Assembly: GCA_002842755.1 (NCBI GenBank)
Contig: PHDU01000039.1
Span: 1-32,670 of the forward strand
From: Bacteroidetes bacterium HGW-Bacteroidetes-1
GTDB taxonomy: Bacteria; Bacteroidota; Bacteroidia; Bacteroidales; F082
Length of the DNA stretch: 32,670 nt
Direction of reading: 5' to 3'
Shown here: in pieces, positions 1 to 7,533 of the stretch
Layout of the letters: the number at the start of each line of letters is the position of its first letter
Position numbering within the stretch: the stretch's first letter is position 1
Made by a program: the position numbers and the translations under genes
Notes under the pieces: model-generated
Seen by the model: the letters and a program-made list of their open reading frames with translations, nothing else
Databases searched by the model: none
Told to the model about the DNA's origin: nothing

Positions 1-465
1 GCTGTTGTCTTCATAGGTCATAAAGTCTCTGGGTGAACGAATTTCTAATTCTTTGTAGCCATTCTTGATGTTAATTGCATTATAGCCGCGAATTCTCTGG
101 ACATTCACAATATGTTTGAAATTCCAGCTAATTAAATAGTCCGCACGGTTTATTGTTGCCAAGGCAATATGCAGACAGTCTGCAAAACTTGTCTGACCGA
201 TAACTTTCTCTGCAATGTAATGCGTTGCTAATTCAACCGCTTCGTTGTTGGTTTCTATAAATTCAGTGTTCTCAGCCCTTAAACTTGTAACAAGTTTCTT
301 AACGCTCTCCGGAGCAGAGCTCAGTTCATCCTGAGTGACGGCAGAGAATAAAAGCCTGAATTCTCCATTCTGAAGTCTTTCGTATAGCGGTCTCGTGAAT
401 TCGGAAAATTCCTCGTCGAAATAGCCGCCAAAAACTGAAGTGTCGATATAAAGTCTTTGTTTCAT
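1..465 (-). CDS. PIN-domain protein (VapC-like ribonuclease toxin), partial at window edge
   Basis: I translated this frame directly. It is open from an ATG at 465 to the window edge, giving 155 residues with no stop seen, so the 3' end is missing. The N-terminus MKQRLYIDTSVFGGYFDEEF has the Asp-Thr-Ser start typical of PIN domains (Asp8). A TQDEL segment follows, then ADCLHIALA and a SWNFKH segment near the C-terminus, which fit the later acidic positions and core of PIN proteins. Family members are Mg-dependent ribonucleases, usually toxins paired with a small antitoxin. No antitoxin gene lies upstream: only 73 bp separate the start from repeat copy A. A partner could lie beyond the window. 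A perfect TATCTTTG -7 element sits so close to the ATG that the mRNA may be leaderless. Confidence 0.8.
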   Translation of the reverse strand, partial: MKQRLYIDTSVFGGYFDEEFSEFTRPLYERLQNGEFRLLFSAVTQDELSSAPESVKKLVTSLRAENTEFIETNNEAVELATHYIAEKVIGQTSFADCLHIALATINRADYLISWNFKHIVNVQRIRGYNAINIKNGYKELEIRSPRDFMTYEDNS

Positions 466-538: not shown

Positions 539-796
539 TAATGAGTATATACCCGCAATACCTCGCCTATTTTCACTTTGTGATTATCTCCCATTTTACA
601 TGGTTTTTTTCAAGACATAAAGATAAAAAACATATCCTTCCACCTCGCAGTTCTTCCGGGTTTTTATAGAAATAAAATTGAGAGCAAAGAACGTCTATTC
701 AACTTTTTATTAAAAACCACCAAAAACGGTCGATACGTACATTGCAACTTTTTGGACGCTGGTGGGGATGCGCTGCATCGAGCCAGTCGAGATGTA
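539..796 (-). repeat. Dispersed cassette-like repeat, copy A (fused to ATPase 3' end)
   Basis: Positions 549-634 are identical over 86 bp to 3247-3332 (copy C). The rest aligns with copies B and C up to position 796. The gene-distal end on the minus strand reads ATACTCATTATGC. The gene-proximal 87 bp lie inside the ATPase reading frame that stops at 710. The gene-proximal part contains an imperfect hairpin in which CTGG pairs with CCAG outside GATGC/GCATC. Copies B and C continue for about 165 bp past the point where A enters the gene, so A is truncated on that side. Confidence 0.85.
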
Positions 797-1954
797 TATA
801 CTTGTATTATCAAAATCGAGCGTTAAAAGATACTTTGGATAATTGTCTTTTATATTTTTTAATGCCGAAATCTCTCTTGTAAAGGTTTTTTCGTCATTAA
901 CGGTAAAAGCTACTTGGTAATATTCACGTTCATTATTAGGTTTTTGCACTACAAAATCGATCTCCTTATCGTTGTGTTTACCTACATAAACCTTACCTCC
1001 ACGTCTAAATAACTCGAAATAGACAACATTCTCTAGTTTATGGCCTAAGTCTGTATCATATTTATTTGTTGTTGTAATATTTCTTAACCCCAAATCTACA
1101 AGGTAATATTTTTCGTTTGTTGTAAGCAACTCTTTGCCTTTTATGTCATAACGTGGGGCAGCATATAGAATATATGATTGAGTAAGATAATCCAAATACT
1201 TAATAATAGTGTTATGGGATATTTTTTTTTGTGAATTCTTATTGAGCTCTACTGCAATATTTGTCGGAGAAACATTAGACCCAACCGAGTCAAATAAAAA
1301 ACTAATAATACGATGCAGATTGTAAATATTTCTTAGCTTATACCGTTTAGCAATGTCTTTAATAATAACTGTGTCATAAATAGTTTGGAGGTAATCCTTT
1401 ACCAAATCATTGCTGTTTCGAGAAAGAGTAACTACCTCAGGAAAACAACTTTCATTGATATACTTGCGAAAAAGACGGTCGGTATTTTTTTCATCCGCGT
1501 TAGCTAAGGCATACTCTTTAAAAGAATAAGGTTGAATATTAATGGCAATGTATCTGCCTGTTAATAGCGTTGCTAACTCGCTTGATAGTAAATAAGCATT
1601 TGAGCCGGTTATGTATAAATCTATGTTCTTTTTTACAAATAAACTATTAATAAGCTTTTCAAAATCGTTAATAAGTTGTATTTCATCTAAAAAGATGTAA
1701 TATTTATTGTCGGGGATTACGCTCTTTATGATTTCATCATATAAAGCTGTCCAGTTTGTAAAGTTTAGATTTTCACGTTCCTCAAAATTGATAAAAATTA
1801 TATTCCTCGAAGAAACGCCACTTGATAGTAGTTCATTTTTAAAGGCTTCTAAAAGAGTTGATTTTCCACTCCTTCTTATTCCGGTAATGACTTTTATTAA
1901 GTTTTGGTTTCTGAGTTGTCTTAACTTGCTTAAATAGGTTTCTCGCTGTATCAT
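710..1954 (-). CDS. AAA_14/DUF4143 family ATPase (COG1373-like), C-terminus replaced by repeat
   Basis: A 414-residue protein from ATG 1954. It has a Walker A GIRRSGKST (25-33), a Walker B IFLDE (87-91) and a sensor-like ITGSNAYLL (115-123). A winged-helix-like middle follows, and then a C-terminal domain with KEIDFVVQK resembling the PD-(D/E)xK-like DUF4143 fold. The family is widespread and poorly understood. Roles in defence, toxin-like systems or mobile elements have been suggested, but none can be read from this sequence. The family-like sequence ends near KYLLTLDFDNTSIY. The last 27 residues (388-414) are encoded by repeat copy A and are not family sequence, so the natural C-terminus appears to have been replaced. 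Gene order and strand match the neighbouring cassettes. Confidence 0.85.
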   Translation of the reverse strand: MIQRETYLSKLRQLRNQNLIKVITGIRRSGKSTLLEAFKNELLSSGVSSRNIIFINFEERENLNFTNWTALYDEIIKSVIPDNKYYIFLDEIQLINDFEKLINSLFVKKNIDLYITGSNAYLLSSELATLLTGRYIAINIQPYSFKEYALANADEKNTDRLFRKYINESCFPEVVTLSRNSNDLVKDYLQTIYDTVIIKDIAKRYKLRNIYNLHRIISFLFDSVGSNVSPTNIAVELNKNSQKKISHNTIIKYLDYLTQSYILYAAPRYDIKGKELLTTNEKYYLVDLGLRNITTTNKYDTDLGHKLENVVYFELFRRGGKVYVGKHNDKEIDFVVQKPNNEREYYQVAFTVNDEKTFTREISALKNIKDNYPKYLLTLDFDNTSIYISTGSMQRIPTSVQKVAMYVSTVFGGF

Positions 1955-1962
1955 TTTTTTTA

Positions 1963-1970
1963 CAAAGGTA
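1963..1970 (-). promoter_or_regulatory. -7 element of ATPase 1 promoter
   Basis: TACCTTTG on the minus strand, a perfect TAnnTTTG, 8 bp before the ATG at 1954. An inverted pair TGACGA/TCGTCA lies just upstream (1979-1984 and 2007-2012). No -33 TTG is seen at the usual spacing. Confidence 0.45.
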
Positions 1971-2035
1971 CACCTTAATGACGAAAAATAAAAATAACAT
2001 CATTTATCGTCAATAGCTTTAGTTTTGCTTGTGCG

Positions 2036-2365
2036 TAACGAGTATTTACACCCAATACTGCCTCTATTTTCACCTTGTGTTTATGTCCCGTTTTTCTGTT
2101 TTTTTTCAAGATATAAAGATAAAAAACATAAACATCCATCTTTATTTTCTTTGGAATTTTTATGGAAATTAAATTGAAATCAAAGAGCGTTTGTTCAGCT
2201 TTTTATTAAAAACCACCAAAAACGGTCGATAAGTACAAGGCAACTTTTTGGACTCTGGTGGAGATGCGCTGCATCGAGCCTGCCGAGATGTAGTTCAATC
2301 CTGCAAATGTGGGAAGTTATGGATGGGTTTCCGTCTTGCCGGGACGCTCAGAGTCCTATTTATTA
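2036..2365 (-). repeat. Dispersed cassette-like repeat, copy B (full length)
   Basis: About 330 bp aligning end to end with copy C (3237-3571). It fills most of the 418-bp gap between ATPase 1 and the peptidase gene. The minus strand begins 7 bp after the peptidase stop and ends in ATACTCGTTACGC. It holds the same reading frame that forms the C-terminus of ATPase 1 (GSMQRIST ... VFGGF, then stop), here without a gene attached. In its gene-distal half B resembles copy D more than A or C, so there are at least two subtypes. Confidence 0.85.
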
Positions 2366-2372
2366 CCGGGTG

Positions 2373-3170
2373 CTATTCTATCTTTTCATGTTTTATGTAC
2401 TGAATCCATTGTTTTTCTAAGGTGTTTTCCGGCAAACCATATATGGTTTCAATATTTTCAGGCTCTTTTATCAGAGAAACCAATTTGTCAATACCGTAAG
2501 TATCAACAAGGAATTCAACAATCGTAACAGAAAGTCCATAACCATTCATGTGGCCAAATTCCATAGCCGATGCGGTAATAAGTTGTGTCCAAGTTGGCGG
2601 CACCTTATCACGCAAACTTGATTCTACAGATTTTCGAATAGGTTCATTCACCTGACCTGCTTCGTATTGTGCATATCCTTCGTTAAGCCATTTTGGTAAT
2701 CCGGTAACGACTTTATTCCCAATTGCATAATACACAGCAATATGTACAAATTCATGGACAATCACCTGCATAAGGGATTCATAGGTATGAATACTTCCTG
2801 GATTCAATGGTGATACCATCAATAACTCATCTCCAATACATGAGCCAACAACCCAGTCAGGTGCATCAGGATAATTTATTGCGACATGAAAAGACTTAAT
2901 ATCTGGAAAGACTCTCACGTTAATTTTTTTTTCGATTTGTAACCCTAAACGATTCGTAATTCTGGAGTAATTTTTCTCTAAAGTTAGTGCAAGTGAATCT
3001 AAAACTTTAATGTCGCCATTGGTTGAATAAAATTTGAAATGCTGACTCTCTTTTGTTAAATTCAGGGAATCGTTATTTTGCCCGACTAATTTTGGGATTG
3101 TTAAACACACAAAAAAAACTATTAAAAGTACATTCACAACTATGGGTTTTATTTTCGTTTTCATAAACAT
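2373..3170 (-). CDS. Secreted gluzincin-type metallopeptidase-like protein (peptidase MA-like)
   Basis: 265 residues from ATG 3170; a second in-frame ATG at 3164 is equally plausible. Residues 1-31 form a signal peptide with a hydrophobic core ending LVGQ, so the protein should be exported. The zinc site is clear: VIVHEFVHIA gives His139, Glu140 and His143, and WLNEGYAQYE gives the third ligand Glu164. This HExxH plus downstream NEG-Y arrangement is typical of the peptidase MA-like gluzincins. The substrate is unknown. The gene ends 7 bp from repeat copy B and its start is 67 bp from copy C, so it makes up one gene-plus-repeat unit. Confidence 0.8.
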   Translation of the reverse strand: MFMKTKIKPIVVNVLLIVFFVCLTIPKLVGQNNDSLNLTKESQHFKFYSTNGDIKVLDSLALTLEKNYSRITNRLGLQIEKKINVRVFPDIKSFHVAINYPDAPDWVVGSCIGDELLMVSPLNPGSIHTYESLMQVIVHEFVHIAVYYAIGNKVVTGLPKWLNEGYAQYEAGQVNEPIRKSVESSLRDKVPPTWTQLITASAMEFGHMNGYGLSVTIVEFLVDTYGIDKLVSLIKEPENIETIYGLPENTLEKQWIQYIKHEKIE

Positions 3171-3236
3171 ATTATTTTGTTGGTATTTTTATGATTCTTA
3201 AATATTCCTATGACAGACAATAGCCTTAATAACCGC

Positions 3237-3571
3237 TAACAACGAAATACCCGCAATACCTCGCCTATTTTCACTTTGTGATTATCTCCCATTTTACATG
3301 GTTTTTTTCAAGACATAAAGATAAAAAACATAAACATCCATCTTTATGTTCTGCTAGATTTTTATGGAAATAAAATTGAAATCAAAGAACGTTCGTTCAA
3401 TATTTTATTAAAAACCACCAAAAACGGTCGATAAGCACTTAGCACCTTTTTGAATCTGGTGGGGATGCGCTCCATCGAGCCAGTCGAGATGTAGTTCAAT
3501 CCTGCAAATGTGGGAAGTTATGGATGGGTTTTCGGCTTGCAGGAACCAGCTGTTCAGAGGCTTGTTTATTA
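3237..3571 (-). repeat. Dispersed cassette-like repeat, copy C (full length)
   Basis: About 335 bp, homologous to copy B throughout and identical to copy A over 86 bp (3247-3332). The gene-distal end on the minus strand reads ATTTCGTTGTTAGCGG. Compared with A and B, the frame coding GSMQRIP carries a 1-nt deletion after the AGATTC segment, so it no longer reaches the VFGGF stop. Confidence 0.85.
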
Positions 3572-3714
3572 ATGCCATTGATTCTTTTTTCAGTCAAGAT
3601 TTTCCTTTACCGAATTCTCCTAAAAAATCTGTCTGGGCAGTATTGAATTTCGGATCTACTATTGAAATCTTTCAGCAACTATCTTTGTCGTCTATTGCAA
3701 TTATACTAATCTCT
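3572..3714. other. Gap between repeat C and small membrane protein gene, no gene seen
   Basis: With repeat C this makes a gap of more than 500 bp without a gene. The minus strand has short gene-like stretches (for example ISIVDPKFNTAQTDFLGEFG) broken by stop codons. They could be the remains of a gene, but I cannot assign a family. Confidence 0.3.
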
Positions 3715-3927
3715 CTATTTTGAGAAAAGTTTTTTCAGAAGAAAATCAACTGAAAAGTAAACAAATCCCCATAATGCCAAATCAATCAGCAACCTTATGT
3801 TTACAATGCCTTCAGTAAAGTCATAATGGAATCCTGTCAATTTATACAAGATTTTCACAATTATGTATGTAATTATGATTGTACCAAATGGAATAAAAAA
3901 ATTGGTTTTTTTCTGCGAGTCTCTCAT
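3715..3927 (-). CDS. Small two-helix membrane protein, unknown function
   Basis: 70 residues from the ATG at 3927. An upstream GTG at 4014 would give 99 residues but runs into repeat copy D, so the shorter form is preferred. The N-terminus is polar (MRDSQKKTNF). Two hydrophobic segments follow, around residues 10-29 and 45-63, then a basic tail KKLFSK. I do not recognise the family. Its place between repeat D at its 5' side and repeat C downstream, on the same strand as its neighbours, supports it as a cassette-like gene. The 144-bp distance to repeat C is the largest in the set. Confidence 0.55.
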   Translation of the reverse strand: MRDSQKKTNFFIPFGTIIITYIIVKILYKLTGFHYDFTEGIVNIRLLIDLALWGFVYFSVDFLLKKLFSK

Positions 3928-4005
3928 TTTTATTGAATTTTCATGGTTAAAAAATATTGAATTTATGTTCAATCGCCCTTTCCTGGCAACATTGGTACTA
4001 AGGAA

Positions 4006-4069
4006 AATATACACGCAATAGTGCGTCTATTTTCACCTTGTGTTTATGTCCTATTTTTCTGGGTTTTAA
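4006..4069 (-). repeat. Dispersed cassette-like repeat, truncated copy D
   Basis: About 64 bp matching the gene-distal end of copy B, including the shared stretch CTATTTTCACCTTGTGTTTA. The gene-proximal 260 bp are missing. It lies 3 bp from the stop codon of ATPase 2 at 4073, so the repeat has been cut back to the gene end. Confidence 0.7.
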
Positions 4070-4072
4070 TTT

Positions 4073-5242
4073 TTAGTAATTTAATCCAAAAGCCCAAAGT
4101 GGTATTACATTGAGGTACCCAAATTCAATATCATCTTTTACCACAAATGATTTAACGTCTTTCTCTATTTGCGTCTGCTGTTTGTTTTTTCCACCCACTT
4201 CAAACGTATAATTATCTATAACGAAATCGGCTTTTTCTGATGATATTACTTCATTTTTTAGTCGCATTTGATTGAAGAAGAACGTTTCTCGTATATTTCC
4301 TATATTTGATTTCTCTCCAACCAAGTTAAAAATAATATTTGTATTATCCAGATACACCTTGTCAACTTTCCCTAATCCCCGGATACCGCTTGTTTCGTTG
4401 CGTAACTGACCAATAAGTCCGGCTTTTTCCATATATGTAAAATAATCGTCCAGGGAGTTCCGACTTACACCAATTATTTCTGATATTTTGGAGAAATTTG
4501 GTTTAAATGGAACACTCTCTGCGATAATGGAAAGTAATCGTTTCAATTTACGACTTGTTCCAACGTTTAGGTTGGCATATTGCGGAATATCAGTTTCCAA
4601 TGTTTGAACAATGATTTGTCCTAAACGTATATCCATTTCATTTTCAAGTCCGAAAGGATAGTAACCCCGTTTCAAATAGTCATTAAACAATGGTAGCGGA
4701 TGTATAATATCTGTAAGCTTTACTTCATTGTTGACTATTTGTTTTAGCGAATGAACTTCTGTTTCGTAATTATGAAATAATTTTAAATATTCCCGAAATG
4801 AGAGTCCGTGTAATTTGTAGATTATGGCACGGCGGCTTAAATCTGCTGAACCTTTAAGGATATCAAGTACAGAAGAACCTGTGAAAACAATTTTTAAGGC
4901 AGGAAAAGAATCGTAAATATTTTTTAATTCACGAGACCAATCCGAATATTTGTGTATTTCATCAATAAACAAATACTCGCCTGCATTCTTGTAAAATTCA
5001 TCAGCTAAATCAAAAAGTCTGTTTTCACCAAAATACATATCGTCTGCCGATACATATAAGGCTTTTTTGCTGTCTAAATTTTCCTTGATGTGTTGCAATA
5101 TCAACGTCGTTTTACCGACACCACGAGCGCCAATAATCCCAATCATTCGATTATCCCAGGAGACTTTCTCGTATAAGTAGCGTTTAAAGTCTGTTGTCGT
5201 ATTTTGTAAAAGTGTTTCAAATTTCTGGTAAAGTGTTCTCAT
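4073..5242 (-). CDS. AAA_14/DUF4143 family ATPase, paralogue 2
   Basis: 389 residues from ATG 5242. A longer GTG start at 5266 would overlap the -7 promoter element, so it is rejected. Walker A GARGVGKTT is at 38-46 and Walker B LFIDE at 91-95. FTGSS and ADLSRRA follow, then a winged-helix-like segment (ISEIIGVSRNSLDDYFTYME). A C-terminal ADFVIDNYTFEVGGKNK has the D...ExxxK spacing of PD-(D/E)xK-like folds. It is much closer to ATPase 3 (same Walker spacing, same NIYD-FPALK segment) than to ATPase 1. The family function is unsettled. A palindrome inside the promoter suggests repression, possibly by its own helix-turn-helix part. Confidence 0.85.
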   Translation of the reverse strand: MRTLYQKFETLLQNTTTDFKRYLYEKVSWDNRMIGIIGARGVGKTTLILQHIKENLDSKKALYVSADDMYFGENRLFDLADEFYKNAGEYLFIDEIHKYSDWSRELKNIYDSFPALKIVFTGSSVLDILKGSADLSRRAIIYKLHGLSFREYLKLFHNYETEVHSLKQIVNNEVKLTDIIHPLPLFNDYLKRGYYPFGLENEMDIRLGQIIVQTLETDIPQYANLNVGTSRKLKRLLSIIAESVPFKPNFSKISEIIGVSRNSLDDYFTYMEKAGLIGQLRNETSGIRGLGKVDKVYLDNTNIIFNLVGEKSNIGNIRETFFFNQMRLKNEVISSEKADFVIDNYTFEVGGKNKQQTQIEKDVKSFVVKDDIEFGYLNVIPLWAFGLNY

Positions 5243-5265
5243 TATTTTTATCCAATAATTTTTCA

Positions 5266-5298
5266 CAAAGATACAAAATGCACAACAAAATGTGCAAA
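5266..5298 (-). promoter_or_regulatory. ATPase 2 promoter with internal palindrome
   Basis: On the minus strand TTTG (5295-5298) is followed by 21 bp and then TATCTTTG (5266-5273), a perfect Bacteroidota promoter. The perfect inverted repeat TGCACA-N6-TGTGCA (5279-5296) lies across the spacer and touches the -33 box. A further TGTGCA (5311-5316) and an ATGCAAA (5324-5330) lie upstream. This is the layout expected for a repressor site. Confidence 0.65.
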
Positions 5299-5428
5299 TA
5301 TTTCAATAAATGTGCAATCAAATATGCAAAGTGTTTTTTTACCTGGCGTTAACGAGTATATAAGCATAAATCAAAGTTCAGGCCTAAATCCGCCAGAAAG
5401 TATTATGCATTGTTGTGCTTTCGTGCTG
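5299..5428. other. Gene-free stretch with a remnant of the dispersed repeat end
   Basis: At 5350-5360 the plus strand reads TAACGAGTATA, matching the gene-distal ends of repeat copies A and B; no further homology follows. An inverted pair CTGGCG/CGCCAG (5343-5348 and 5391-5396) encloses it. No gene is seen. Confidence 0.35.
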
Positions 5429-5540
5429 TAAAATCGGGATGCTCTGCCAACTGAGCTACAATCATAAAAAAACTGCACTCACTTTTTCGCGTTTGTGCAG
5501 TTTGTTGTCTCCCCGACAGGGCTCGAACCTGTGGCCCGCT
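5429..5540 (-). repeat. 112-bp duplicate of the tRNA-Lys end (attachment-site-like)
   Basis: Matches 7382-7493 at 109 of 112 positions. On the minus strand it holds, in order: the 3' end of tRNA-Lys (5508-5540: end of the anticodon stem, variable loop, T arm, acceptor 3' strand), the terminator hairpin that follows tRNA-Lys (5470-5503), and the 5' half of another tRNA-like sequence broken at its anticodon loop (5429-5465). No complete tRNA can form here. Duplicated tRNA 3' ends are the usual mark of integration by a tyrosine recombinase. Confidence 0.85.
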
Positions 5541-5662: not shown

Positions 5663-5715
5663 ATGTTGTGCGAAAACAACATTATTTATATAATTATGTT
5701 GTTTCTGTACAACAT
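5663..5715 (+). promoter_or_regulatory. Twin identical-arm palindromes upstream of ATPase 3
   Basis: ATGTTGT-N6-ACAACAT occurs twice, at 5663-5682 and 5696-5715. The arms are perfect and identical, the 6-bp spacers differ (GCGAAA and TTCTGT), and the period is 33 bp, close to three helical turns. The second copy covers the -33 TTG of the promoter. This looks like a pair of operators for a dimeric regulator. Confidence 0.65.
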
Positions 5716-5730
5716 TTTTTACGATCTTTG
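5699..5730 (+). promoter_or_regulatory. ATPase 3 promoter
   Basis: TTG (5699-5701), 21-bp spacer, GATCTTTG (5723-5730), one mismatch from TAnnTTTG. Transcription would begin near 5737, which supports the ATG at 5749 and rules out the GTG at 5668. Confidence 0.55.
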
Positions 5731-5748
5731 AGCCCTAATTCAATCCGT

Positions 5749-6945
5749 ATGCAAAAATATATTGCTATCATGCACAGGCTCACTGCGGCTTGTTCGATAG
5801 AAAAAATCAGGTACCTCTATCACCAGATTGATTGGAATCAACGGTTAATTGGTATATTAGGGGCTAGGGGTGCCGGCAAGACAACACTCATGCTGCAATA
5901 CATTAAACTGAATTTCCTAAAAAATGAGGACGTACTATATCTGTCCCTTGACCGCGTTTTTCCACCTGACTTTAGCATTTATCAGCTTGCTGAACAATTT
6001 TATATGCAGGGCGGGCGACATTTGCTTTTGGATGAGGTGCACAAATACCCCGGCTGGACAGTGGAAATCAAAAACATTTACGATGACTTCCCTGCATTGA
6101 AACTGGTATTTTCAGGTTCGTCAGCGCTATTATTGCACCGCTCTGAAGCCGACCTCAGCCGCAGGGCCTCAATGTATCACCTGCGAAATCTGTCATTTCG
6201 GGAATTTATTCTGTTTAAATCCGGCTTCCGGTTTGAGCCTTATGGTCTGCAGGAAATACTGGAAACGCATGTAAAATTGGCCAATGAAATCAATCAAAAA
6301 ATAAGACCCGTTCAACTTTTTCAGGAGTACACAAAGTTCGGCGCTTATCCTTACTATTTCGAGAATGCTTCGCTTTACCACGACAGGGTGATGGCAACGG
6401 TGAAAACGATCATCGAAACAGATTTCCCTGCTATTACTTCGTTCAACTATTCCAGTGTGGTGGCCATTCAGAAATTACTTTCCTTCATAGCCGACAGCGT
6501 TCCATTCAAACCGAATATGGCTGAGCTAAGCCGGAAAACCGGTATTTCGAGAGACGTTTTGCTCAGGATGATCGATTTATTGTTGAGGGCTGATCTGTTA
6601 TTGGTTCTGCGTCAGAAAAGCACCCCAACAGGATATTTTACAAAGCCTGACAAAATTTATCTTCACAATTCATCCCTGGCCTGGGCATTGTCTCAAACAA
6701 ATGAACCTGATATTGGCAATATTCGTGAAACATTCTTTATCAATCAATTAGATGGAATTCATCAACTAAGCCTACCTGATTCAGCTGATTTTTTTGTTGA
6801 CAATAAATATCTCATTGAAATTGGCGGCTCCAATAAAACAAGAAAGCAGTTACAGAAAGCTGAAAATGCCTTTGTAATTCGCGATCAAATCGAAACAGGT
6901 TATAGCAATATTGTTCCTTTGTGGCTTTTTGGCTTCTTATACTAA
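5749..6945 (+). CDS. AAA_14/DUF4143 family ATPase, paralogue 3
   Basis: 398 residues from ATG 5749. A GTG at 5668 is in frame but lies inside the first palindrome, upstream of the promoter. Walker A GARGAGKTT is at 38-46 and Walker B LLLDE at 92-96. FSGSSALLL and ADLSRRA follow, then a winged-helix-like segment (MAELSRKTGISRDVLLRMID). The C-terminal ADFFVDNKYLIEIGGSNK has the acidic residues of the PD-(D/E)xK-like part, but Ser replaces the Lys found in ATPase 2 (GGS against GGK). It is the only plus-strand gene of the accessory region. It has its own operator-promoter and terminator and lies between displaced tRNA-Lys 3' ends, so it looks like a self-contained cargo unit. Confidence 0.85.
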   Translation: MQKYIAIMHRLTAACSIEKIRYLYHQIDWNQRLIGILGARGAGKTTLMLQYIKLNFLKNEDVLYLSLDRVFPPDFSIYQLAEQFYMQGGRHLLLDEVHKYPGWTVEIKNIYDDFPALKLVFSGSSALLLHRSEADLSRRASMYHLRNLSFREFILFKSGFRFEPYGLQEILETHVKLANEINQKIRPVQLFQEYTKFGAYPYYFENASLYHDRVMATVKTIIETDFPAITSFNYSSVVAIQKLLSFIADSVPFKPNMAELSRKTGISRDVLLRMIDLLLRADLLLVLRQKSTPTGYFTKPDKIYLHNSSLAWALSQTNEPDIGNIRETFFINQLDGIHQLSLPDSADFFVDNKYLIEIGGSNKTRKQLQKAENAFVIRDQIETGYSNIVPLWLFGFLY

Positions 6946-7127: not shown

Positions 7128-7200
7128 TAAACCCAGATTCAGTCTTGAATGGATTATTGTCTCCCCGACAGGGCTCGAACCTGTGGCCCTCCCGATGTAA

Positions 7201-7381
7201 TACCGATCGGAGAATTGTAATAGTCCAATTATCGCTCACTCAATTGGCCTAACATTTCTAACCTTCGGCATTATACCATGACAGCTTTTGAATTCATTTA
7301 TAATTCACTTTGATATAACATTTCTATCCATCGGCATTATACCATTAATGCTTTTAGATTCATCTATAATTCACTTTGGTA
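7201..7381. mobile_element. 181-bp insert in the tRNA-like remnant
   Basis: It begins TACC and ends GGTA (4-bp inverted ends) and is flanked by TAA on both sides, consistent with a 3-bp target duplication. It has no coding capacity. Most of it is the 66-bp tandem repeat. The mechanism is unknown. Confidence 0.4.
7250..7381. repeat. 66-bp imperfect tandem repeat, two units
   Basis: Units 7250-7315 and 7316-7381 have the same length with no gaps and differ at 9 positions (about 86 percent identity). Both contain CGGCATTATACCAT and ATAATTCACTTTG. Confidence 0.9.
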
Positions 7382-7418
7382 TAAAATCGGGATGCTCTAC
7401 CAACTGAGCTAGGATCAT

Positions 7419-7456
7419 AAAAAAACTGCACTCACTTTTTCGCGTTTGTGCAGTTT
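7419..7456 (-). terminator. Terminator after tRNA-Lys
   Basis: On the minus strand AAACTGCAC and GTGCAGTTT (7448-7456 and 7423-7431) form a perfect 9-bp stem, followed by a run of T (7419-7425 on the plus strand is all A). It starts 4 bp after the tRNA 3' end. A copy lies at 5470-5503. Confidence 0.8.
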
Positions 7457-7460
7457 GTTG

Positions 7461-7533
<73 letters not shown>

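Follow-up and report, generated by a model that had tools for sequence, protein, structure and literature searches.

We interpret the array of genes and repeats near the beginning of the window (the whole stretch of DNA analyzed here, 32,670 nt from Bacteroidetes bacterium HGW-Bacteroidetes-1) as what is left of an old series of mobile gene cassettes, now decayed in part, that belonged to an integron-like system. We assign this reading a probability of roughly 0.78; it rests on computation only, with catalysis inferred. In the ancestral cassette, a crossover at G^TTR would have been followed by a short leader, one gene, and an attC site whose start would be the reverse complement of the cassette start. 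This attC would fold as a single-strand hairpin, the form in which a tyrosine recombinase would act on it; a 512-aa frame on contig C121 of the same genome encodes an enzyme of this kind.

Repeats and genes of the window

A first-pass annotation of this DNA had placed four copies (A to D) of a dispersed repeat, all in one orientation, along four consecutive minus-strand genes, and both the places and the orientation were confirmed from the sequence and by whole-genome BLAST (Table 1). Searching the genome with copy B recovered C (E 3.8e-98), A (4.7e-71), and D (1.7e-14), as well as partial copies outside the window on contigs C3, C85, and C28; contig C176 gave a weak match to the repeat-core profile. 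The copies are 71-89% similar to each other. That they represent one dispersed repeat holds for the copies as such, but not for a single unit, since B and C are composites of an attC-like and an attI-like module. On the minus strand, the ~330-bp repeat reads as gene, then an attC-like module of ~126-130 nt, then a module of ~205-206 nt with an attI-like end. The first module begins 3 nt (B, TAATAAATAGGACTCTGAGCG) or 139 nt (C) past the gene and closes near ...AAAAAGTTG. Copies A, B, and C each have a second module of 205-206 nt that terminates in ...CTCGTTA or a variant, and D consists only of the 3' end of this module (the core). The edge of copy A lies inside a gene, as had been annotated: its truncated first module falls within the ATPase-1 frame, and the C-terminus of ATPase 1 is unlike that of its homologue in genome G075. 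The letters of site E (AAGCACAAC..GTTAACGCC plus a AATGCATAATACTTTCTGGCGG arm) resemble the site closing the first cassette of locus L123. The window thus contains two near-complete attC-like modules (B and C) and one short module (E).

Table 1. Features of the window array, in order of position
Feature	Position	Strand	Remarks
PIN-domain protein, after A	1..465	minus	Pfam; cut by window edge
Copy A	539-796	minus	one of four window repeats
Copy A, second module	542..747	minus	attI-like core at end, ...ATACTCATTATG
ATPase 1 (AAA_14/DUF4143)	710..1954	minus	Pfam; C-terminus within repeat A
Copy A, first module (attC-like), remnant	748..796	minus	inside ATPase-1 reading frame
Copy B	2036-2365	minus	composite, two modules
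Copy B, second module	2039..2243	minus	attI-like core at end, ...ATACTCGTTAC
Copy B, first module (attC-like)	2244..2370	minus	126 nt, start to crossover G
Peptidase (Peptidase_MA_2)	2373..3170	minus	Pfam
Copy C	3237-3571	minus	composite, two modules
Copy C, second module	3240..3445	minus	attI-like core at end; crossover G at 3240
Copy C, first module (attC-like)	3446..3576	minus	start GGCATTAAT; terminal GTT altered
Small membrane protein unit	3715..4001	minus	first bases partly complementary to start of C (6 of 9)
Copy D	~3999-4069 (core 4002..4069)	minus	attI-like core only; crossover position 4002 is C, not G
ATPase 2 (AAA_14/DUF4143)	4073..5266	minus	Pfam; without full attC behind
Site E, attC-like	5345..5420	minus	short (76 nt); crossover G at 5353; left edge of ATPase-2 cassette, before ATPase 2

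The window order is ATPase 2, D, small protein, C, peptidase, B, ATPase 1, A, PIN. The accessory gene types proposed for the cargo were borne out by Pfam for the PIN-domain protein, the AAA ATPases, and the peptidase, but the small membrane protein has no Pfam match at E<=0.001. The next gene starts ~70-85 bp past copies A, B, and C, and the second module contains an A+T-rich box, both of which would suit repeats that act as transcriptional leader or terminator elements in what is only an operon-like cluster. We give this very little credence: the same repeat precedes different genes, units come and go among related genomes, and in an Rfam search of the window sequence only tRNA reached the gathering score, with no family for the repeats. 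The predicted RNA fold of copy B is unremarkable (z -1.9; 4 of 100 shuffles were equally good).

For comparison within the genus, we used 25 copies to build a profile that covers the 3' portion of the second module. Across nine genomes it found 34 matches, in five of them, and the strand was uniform in all eight contigs with at least two matches (27 of the 34 matches). Gene calls from a home-made program around 44 repeat hits put the 3' neighbour on the strand of the repeat in 44/44 and the 5' neighbour in 36/38. Repeats oriented at random with respect to genes, which would have refuted a cassette array, were therefore not what we observed. Neither was a fixed gene order, the other observation named as fatal, because single units have been gained or lost between the arrays of the window, G075, and G013. 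Contig C114 of G075, a genome of the same genus, has the small-protein unit next to the ATPase-1 unit, with no peptidase unit in between. Its order is GNAT-like gene, repeat, small membrane protein, repeat, ATPase 1, truncated repeat, with the GNAT-like gene in the place of the window's ATPase 2. This array adjoins CopA-like and AraC-like genes; the same flank is found on contig C15 of G013, beside a different array. On contigs C43 of G075 and C65 of G013, the outer genes and one inner gene are common (judged by matching protein ends), two genes are present only in G075, and two only in G013. The labels GNAT, CopA, AraC, HigBA, restriction-like, and XerC/XerD are our own reading, made without family searches. 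Unit gain and loss, uniform orientation, and the attC-like and attI-like modules together support the cassette array that the first-pass annotation had suspected. Its remark that no recombinase is present is correct for the window, but a candidate exists on C121.

The dispersed copies, some of them truncated and spread over several contigs, could also be non-autonomous MITE-like transposable elements downstream of genes; long direct repeats can recombine, and the differences in units would then be later homologous rearrangements. We find this unlikely in view of the single orientation per contig (8/8) and of three observations described below: the reverse complement of the next repeat's start agrees better with the real unit start than with permuted ones, the first module of B has the commonest attC length of intact arrays, and the core resembles attI and occurs behind broken integrase ends.

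Intact arrays beside related integrases

The layout, the boundaries, one common cassette, and the features of the enzyme could be shown in relatives, many of which are represented by draft or metagenome assemblies. The intact layout has every part on the same strand: an integrase, a promoter-like box, an attI ending in GTTR, and then cassettes with attC sites at their joints. The integrase is directly upstream of and co-oriented with an intact array, with a cassette starting at most 450 nt past the integrase stop, in 28 of 60 loci, mostly from Bacteroidia. Each cassette starts at G^TTR, and its closing hairpin site opens with the exact reverse complement of the first nine bases of the cassette. 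Requiring this exact match and a strong stem, we found 113 self-complementary cassettes in the 60 loci versus 4 in one shuffle; the longest runs contain 8 cassettes (L162, Flavobacterium enshiense) and 7 (L287). Single bases were shuffled within 300-nt blocks, and the 5' side of the integrase served as second control. The antisense strand was also tried as a control for attC chains and is invalid (109 cassettes antisense versus 113), since a hairpin site looks the same from either strand. Under these strict rules, an attI-started cassette is absent in 32 of the 60 integrase loci; several of these 32 have, in our reading, frames of Xer length.

Closure of the first cassette was followed in 13 loci. 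An exact nine-base reverse complement is present in five (L121, L123, L128, L129, and L125), and one mismatch is seen in L130 and in C121 of the window's own genome. Four of the same 13 have <200 nt past attI, L092 has no match, and L132 has only an unconvincing one. A contig scan extended the survey to at least 80 loci, mostly named, including Rufibacter, Flavobacterium, Winogradskyella, Algoriphagus, and Cyclobacterium, many of which show the same arrangement of integrase and cassettes. An exact match between start and site occurs at 21 of 39 loci, with that of L172 read as chance; control sites matched in 70 of 962, some of them possibly genuine cassette starts. The site behind the integrase ends in GTTR in 13/15 loci (L127 is masked there, and L131 ends at GTT), and the full GTTRRRY is not kept, as in GTTGTAC of L042.

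Of 36 chosen loci, 16 have the box TAnnTTTG, the -7 promoter element of Bacteroidetes, in sense between the integrase stop and attI, and 5 have it in antisense; shuffling the sense strand 1000 times gave a mean of 2.2 and a maximum of 8. The 36 loci are not independent, since several are close kin, and promoter activity is inferred.

The sites closing these cassettes were read by the general anatomy of attC sites; of 109, 53 are 125-128 nt long, and 126-127 nt is the commonest length. We aligned 49 of 60 listed sites, excluding 11 near-copies. Neither the A that follows AAC nor the C that precedes GTT varies; AAC and GTT were conditions of the search for attC. Double changes were found at 16/16 consensus pairs of the stem and one-side changes at only one pair, and G-U steps are nearly absent, which fits a DNA hairpin. 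As the listed sites were picked partly by stem strength, the pairing is not independent evidence, and the strand that forms the hairpin is inferred.

The boundaries are sharp, as in a large restriction-like cassette shared by two genomes, second in the array of G032 (behind an attC) and first in that of G022 (behind the attI). The alignment of the two copies (3876 bp, 84%) starts exactly at the crossover (offset 0). Assemblies break at the array, downstream of the integrase. Among the matches listed, a contig end lies within 3 kb downstream of 46 of 83 minus-strand hits versus upstream of 3 of 67 plus-strand hits, and the contig start lies within 300 bases on the downstream side of 15 of 83 minus-strand hits versus on the upstream side of 1 of 67 plus-strand hits. 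In L124 and L131 the contig stops right at the crossover (GTTA and GTT), as it does in L151 and L170.

Relation of the window array to the intact system

The inverted R''/R' ends and the hairpin, present in the attC sites of relatives, are found in the window only in degenerate form, and no exact 9-nt pair of start and site remains there. When unit starts and site starts were compared for 11 hand-chosen units of the window type, we observed 64 matches of 99, against 46.5 (sd 4.7) expected, a value reached in 85 of 200,000 permutations. The two window units match at 6 of 9 positions; two of the 11 units match at only 3 of 9 and were kept. Automatic pairing without fixed anchors, which skipped 10 repeat ends without a clear GTT, gave a weaker result (76 versus 69.5; 65 of 20,000 permutations; 11 units).

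Kinship of the core with attI rests on two observations, because the window-type core profile has no match at the C121 site. Firstly, aligning the ends of A to D directly with 12 attI sites of the C121 family gave a mean score of 19.8, compared with 10.5 (sd 1.5) in shuffled controls, which reached it in 0/300. Secondly, in genome G035, pieces of broken integrases run into a window-type core (tblastn; L043 and L048). Taken together, the second module probably ends in an attI. L047 of the same genome has, in our reading, the same arrangement of broken integrase and core.

Intact arrays offer no clear counterpart of the ~205-nt second module. Action of the C121 enzyme on A to D is therefore unproven, and the building of the window array by an enzyme of this type is inferred. 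Given the absence of an exact pair we read the array as decayed, and its present shuffling may therefore be homologous recombination between long repeats, which alone could now add or drop units. The occurrence of an attI-like module after each full attC-like module might reflect an attI fragment that was captured as a cassette and copied with its neighbours, although this is no more than a guess. Pieces of attI are also carried in the cassette array by the delta-attI-type cassettes of mobile integrons (PMC12901181). The likeness is limited to the attI pieces: those cassettes are from mobile integrons, whereas in the window the attI-like module follows each full attC-like one.

The integrase family and its relation to integrons

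The window's own genome encodes three Phage_integrase genes (Pfam), two of them XerC/XerD-like (299-301 aa) and the third the 512-aa frame on C121; none of its proteins passes the IntI cut-off. At E<=1e-40, 44 of 149 family genomes match a C121-type integrase, many over the catalytic part only. A related site follows the integrase stop, reading ...AAAGTGGAAATATATGCCATA-GGGTGCGTTTAGCAAGTAGTTR in the nearest kin of C121, and similarity stops after it. Judged by sequence, the integrases beside intact arrays are not IntI. The IntI-specific insertion (~31+10 aa) is present in 5/5 of the IntI shown and in 0/10 of the new integrases shown. With the IntI profile TIGR02249 (cut-off 265), all eight wider relatives score below (197-241), and C121 scores 165. 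With NF040815 (cut-off 220), six of the eight score above, and C121, at 200, below. A quick tree with only two Xer as outgroup places the new enzymes outside a clade (support 100) that unites the 28 IntI, and leaves the deep branches unresolved; L161 groups with the IntI side (support 90) and is flagged as a long branch.

The new system has in common with integrons the joining of cassettes at G^TT, attC hairpins with inverted R''/R' ends, and a same-strand array that starts from one attI beside a tyrosine recombinase. It differs in the enzyme, which lacks the IntI-specific insertion, falls outside the IntI clade, and has one or more extra N-terminal domains; in the array, which lies 3' of the enzyme gene; and in not keeping a strict GTTRRRY. 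Integrase and cassettes usually diverge in integrons, but here they are co-oriented: in 16 loci of the new integrases, 45 cassettes lie 3' of the integrase and 0 on the 5' side (ten shuffles gave 0-4), while in 16 IntI control loci the same array finder placed 62 cassettes 5' of the integrase (divergent) and 10 3' of it. Canonical IntI loci with cassettes on the 3' side only were L293, L297, and L301 of the phylum sample. In the reverse integron of Treponema denticola, integrase and cassettes share one direction of transcription (PMC7691350); this is its likeness to the new system, and the difference is that the enzyme there is IntI.

The absence of an integrase from the window, the shared logic of attC hairpins and GTT crossover, and the presence of IntI over the cut-off in 105 of 395 phylum-sample genomes are all compatible with the remnant of a canonical IntI integron (CALIN) that has lost IntI. 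We consider such an origin quite improbable, since only 1 of 395 class genomes, and not the window's own, has IntI over the cut-off, the integrases adjoining intact arrays are of another kind, and the array is on the 3' side of the integrase. Further differences from a CALIN are that the window sites combine an attC-like with an attI-like module, and that IntI is not the likely enzyme family.

The structure model of the enzyme is moderate (pLDDT 79, pTM 0.52); it folds the N-terminus into two similar beta-beta-alpha-beta-beta-alpha-beta units. In a PDB profile search, the nearest solved structures were archaeal XerC-like, IntI4 (two stretches), and XerA. Residues 50-201 additionally gave a weak match to rotavirus NSP2 (E about 5e-4). 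Among the best 50 of 593 Foldseek matches, those at E<=0.001 are recombinase or integrase entries and SroF of phage phi3T, which leaves the N-terminal part unexplained. Pfam HARP was found in three of the eight wider relatives, over the cut-off in L160 and sub-threshold in L135 and L166. It has no match up to E 1 in the 13 close relatives of alignment A2, C121 included, and thus "HARP-like" is only a lead.

The class surveyed is inferred to be Bacteroidia, the class of the named relatives. With a profile of the wider integrase alignment (A3), matches at E<=1e-70 were obtained in 198 of 395 class genomes; this is a count of profile matches rather than of verified arrays and may include other recombinases. 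We consider it somewhat more likely than not that as many as half or so of all Bacteroidia species have a distinct integron lineage, with a co-oriented array and a Xer-like recombinase that has one or more extra N-terminal domains and no IntI-specific insertion. If this is true, hairpin cassettes are captured without the domain thought to enable it, the system is either a second invention or the form from which IntI arose, and Bacteroidia would have a general route for swapping accessory genes. The missing insertion, we assume, includes the I2 helix. The shift of IntI from double- to single-strand recombination has been attributed to the acquisition of this helix (PMC7790495), an idea that a hairpin-cassette system without the insertion would make directly testable.

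IntegronFinder identifies IntI by overlap with an IntI-specific domain profile (PMC9668308, PMC9024848); under this rule the new integrases would not count as IntI, and the arrays beside them could be overlooked or taken for orphan attC clusters. Earlier papers name Bacteroidota among the phyla with integrons (PMC8618304), report intI in the Bacteroidetes/Chlorobi group (PMC2426708), and record for Bacteroidetes earlier In0 and one complete integron, in Salinibacter ruber (PMC9024848). Our search of open-licence papers, preprints excluded, found no description of the present system. The NCBI name of NF040815 already reads "site-specific tyrosine recombinase/integron integrase."

Surroundings of the repeat copies

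Two ATPase genes look similar, lie on opposite strands and have an inverted repeat in common (81%). Beside the array, partial tRNA-like copies (one of 117 nt at 96%, one of 36 nt) accompany a complete tRNA-Lys, and have perhaps arisen by insertion or duplication at a tRNA. In many copies, among them A to D, the core of the second module can be read as a short, GHKHKVKIDAVLRVYTR-like open frame, which may be either chance or coding.

Coordinates of features in the window and on related loci
Feature	Sequence	Positions	Strand or place
ATPase genes	window	4073-5266; 5668-6945	opposite strands
Inverted repeat	window	4496-4538 / 6474-6516	
tRNA-Lys, complete	window	7460-7533	minus
tRNA and tRNA-like stretches	window	5424-5540; 7154-7189; 7377-7533	immediately outside left edge of array
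Second-module core (example)	window	2039-2104	
Integrase (residues 50-201 match NSP2 weakly)	L042	1193-2635	
Gene pair, then first-module site	L006 (own contig C28)	1501-2306	

Isolated site on another contig

On C28 of the same genome, a gene pair that looks like a HigB/HigA toxin-antitoxin (our reading, without a family search) precedes a stand-alone first-module site with the terminal sequence GTTATGC.

Integrase relatives

N-terminally, the integrase profile gave a weak match to rotavirus NSP2 (E about 5e-4). The clearest match to the Pfam family HARP was the integrase of L160, a contig with a Spirochaetota MAG title; it carries an integrase, an attI-like site and a first cassette, all of the kind described here. 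Three canonical IntI loci (L293, L297 and L301) have cassettes on the 3' side only, resembling in this the reverse integrons of Treponema.
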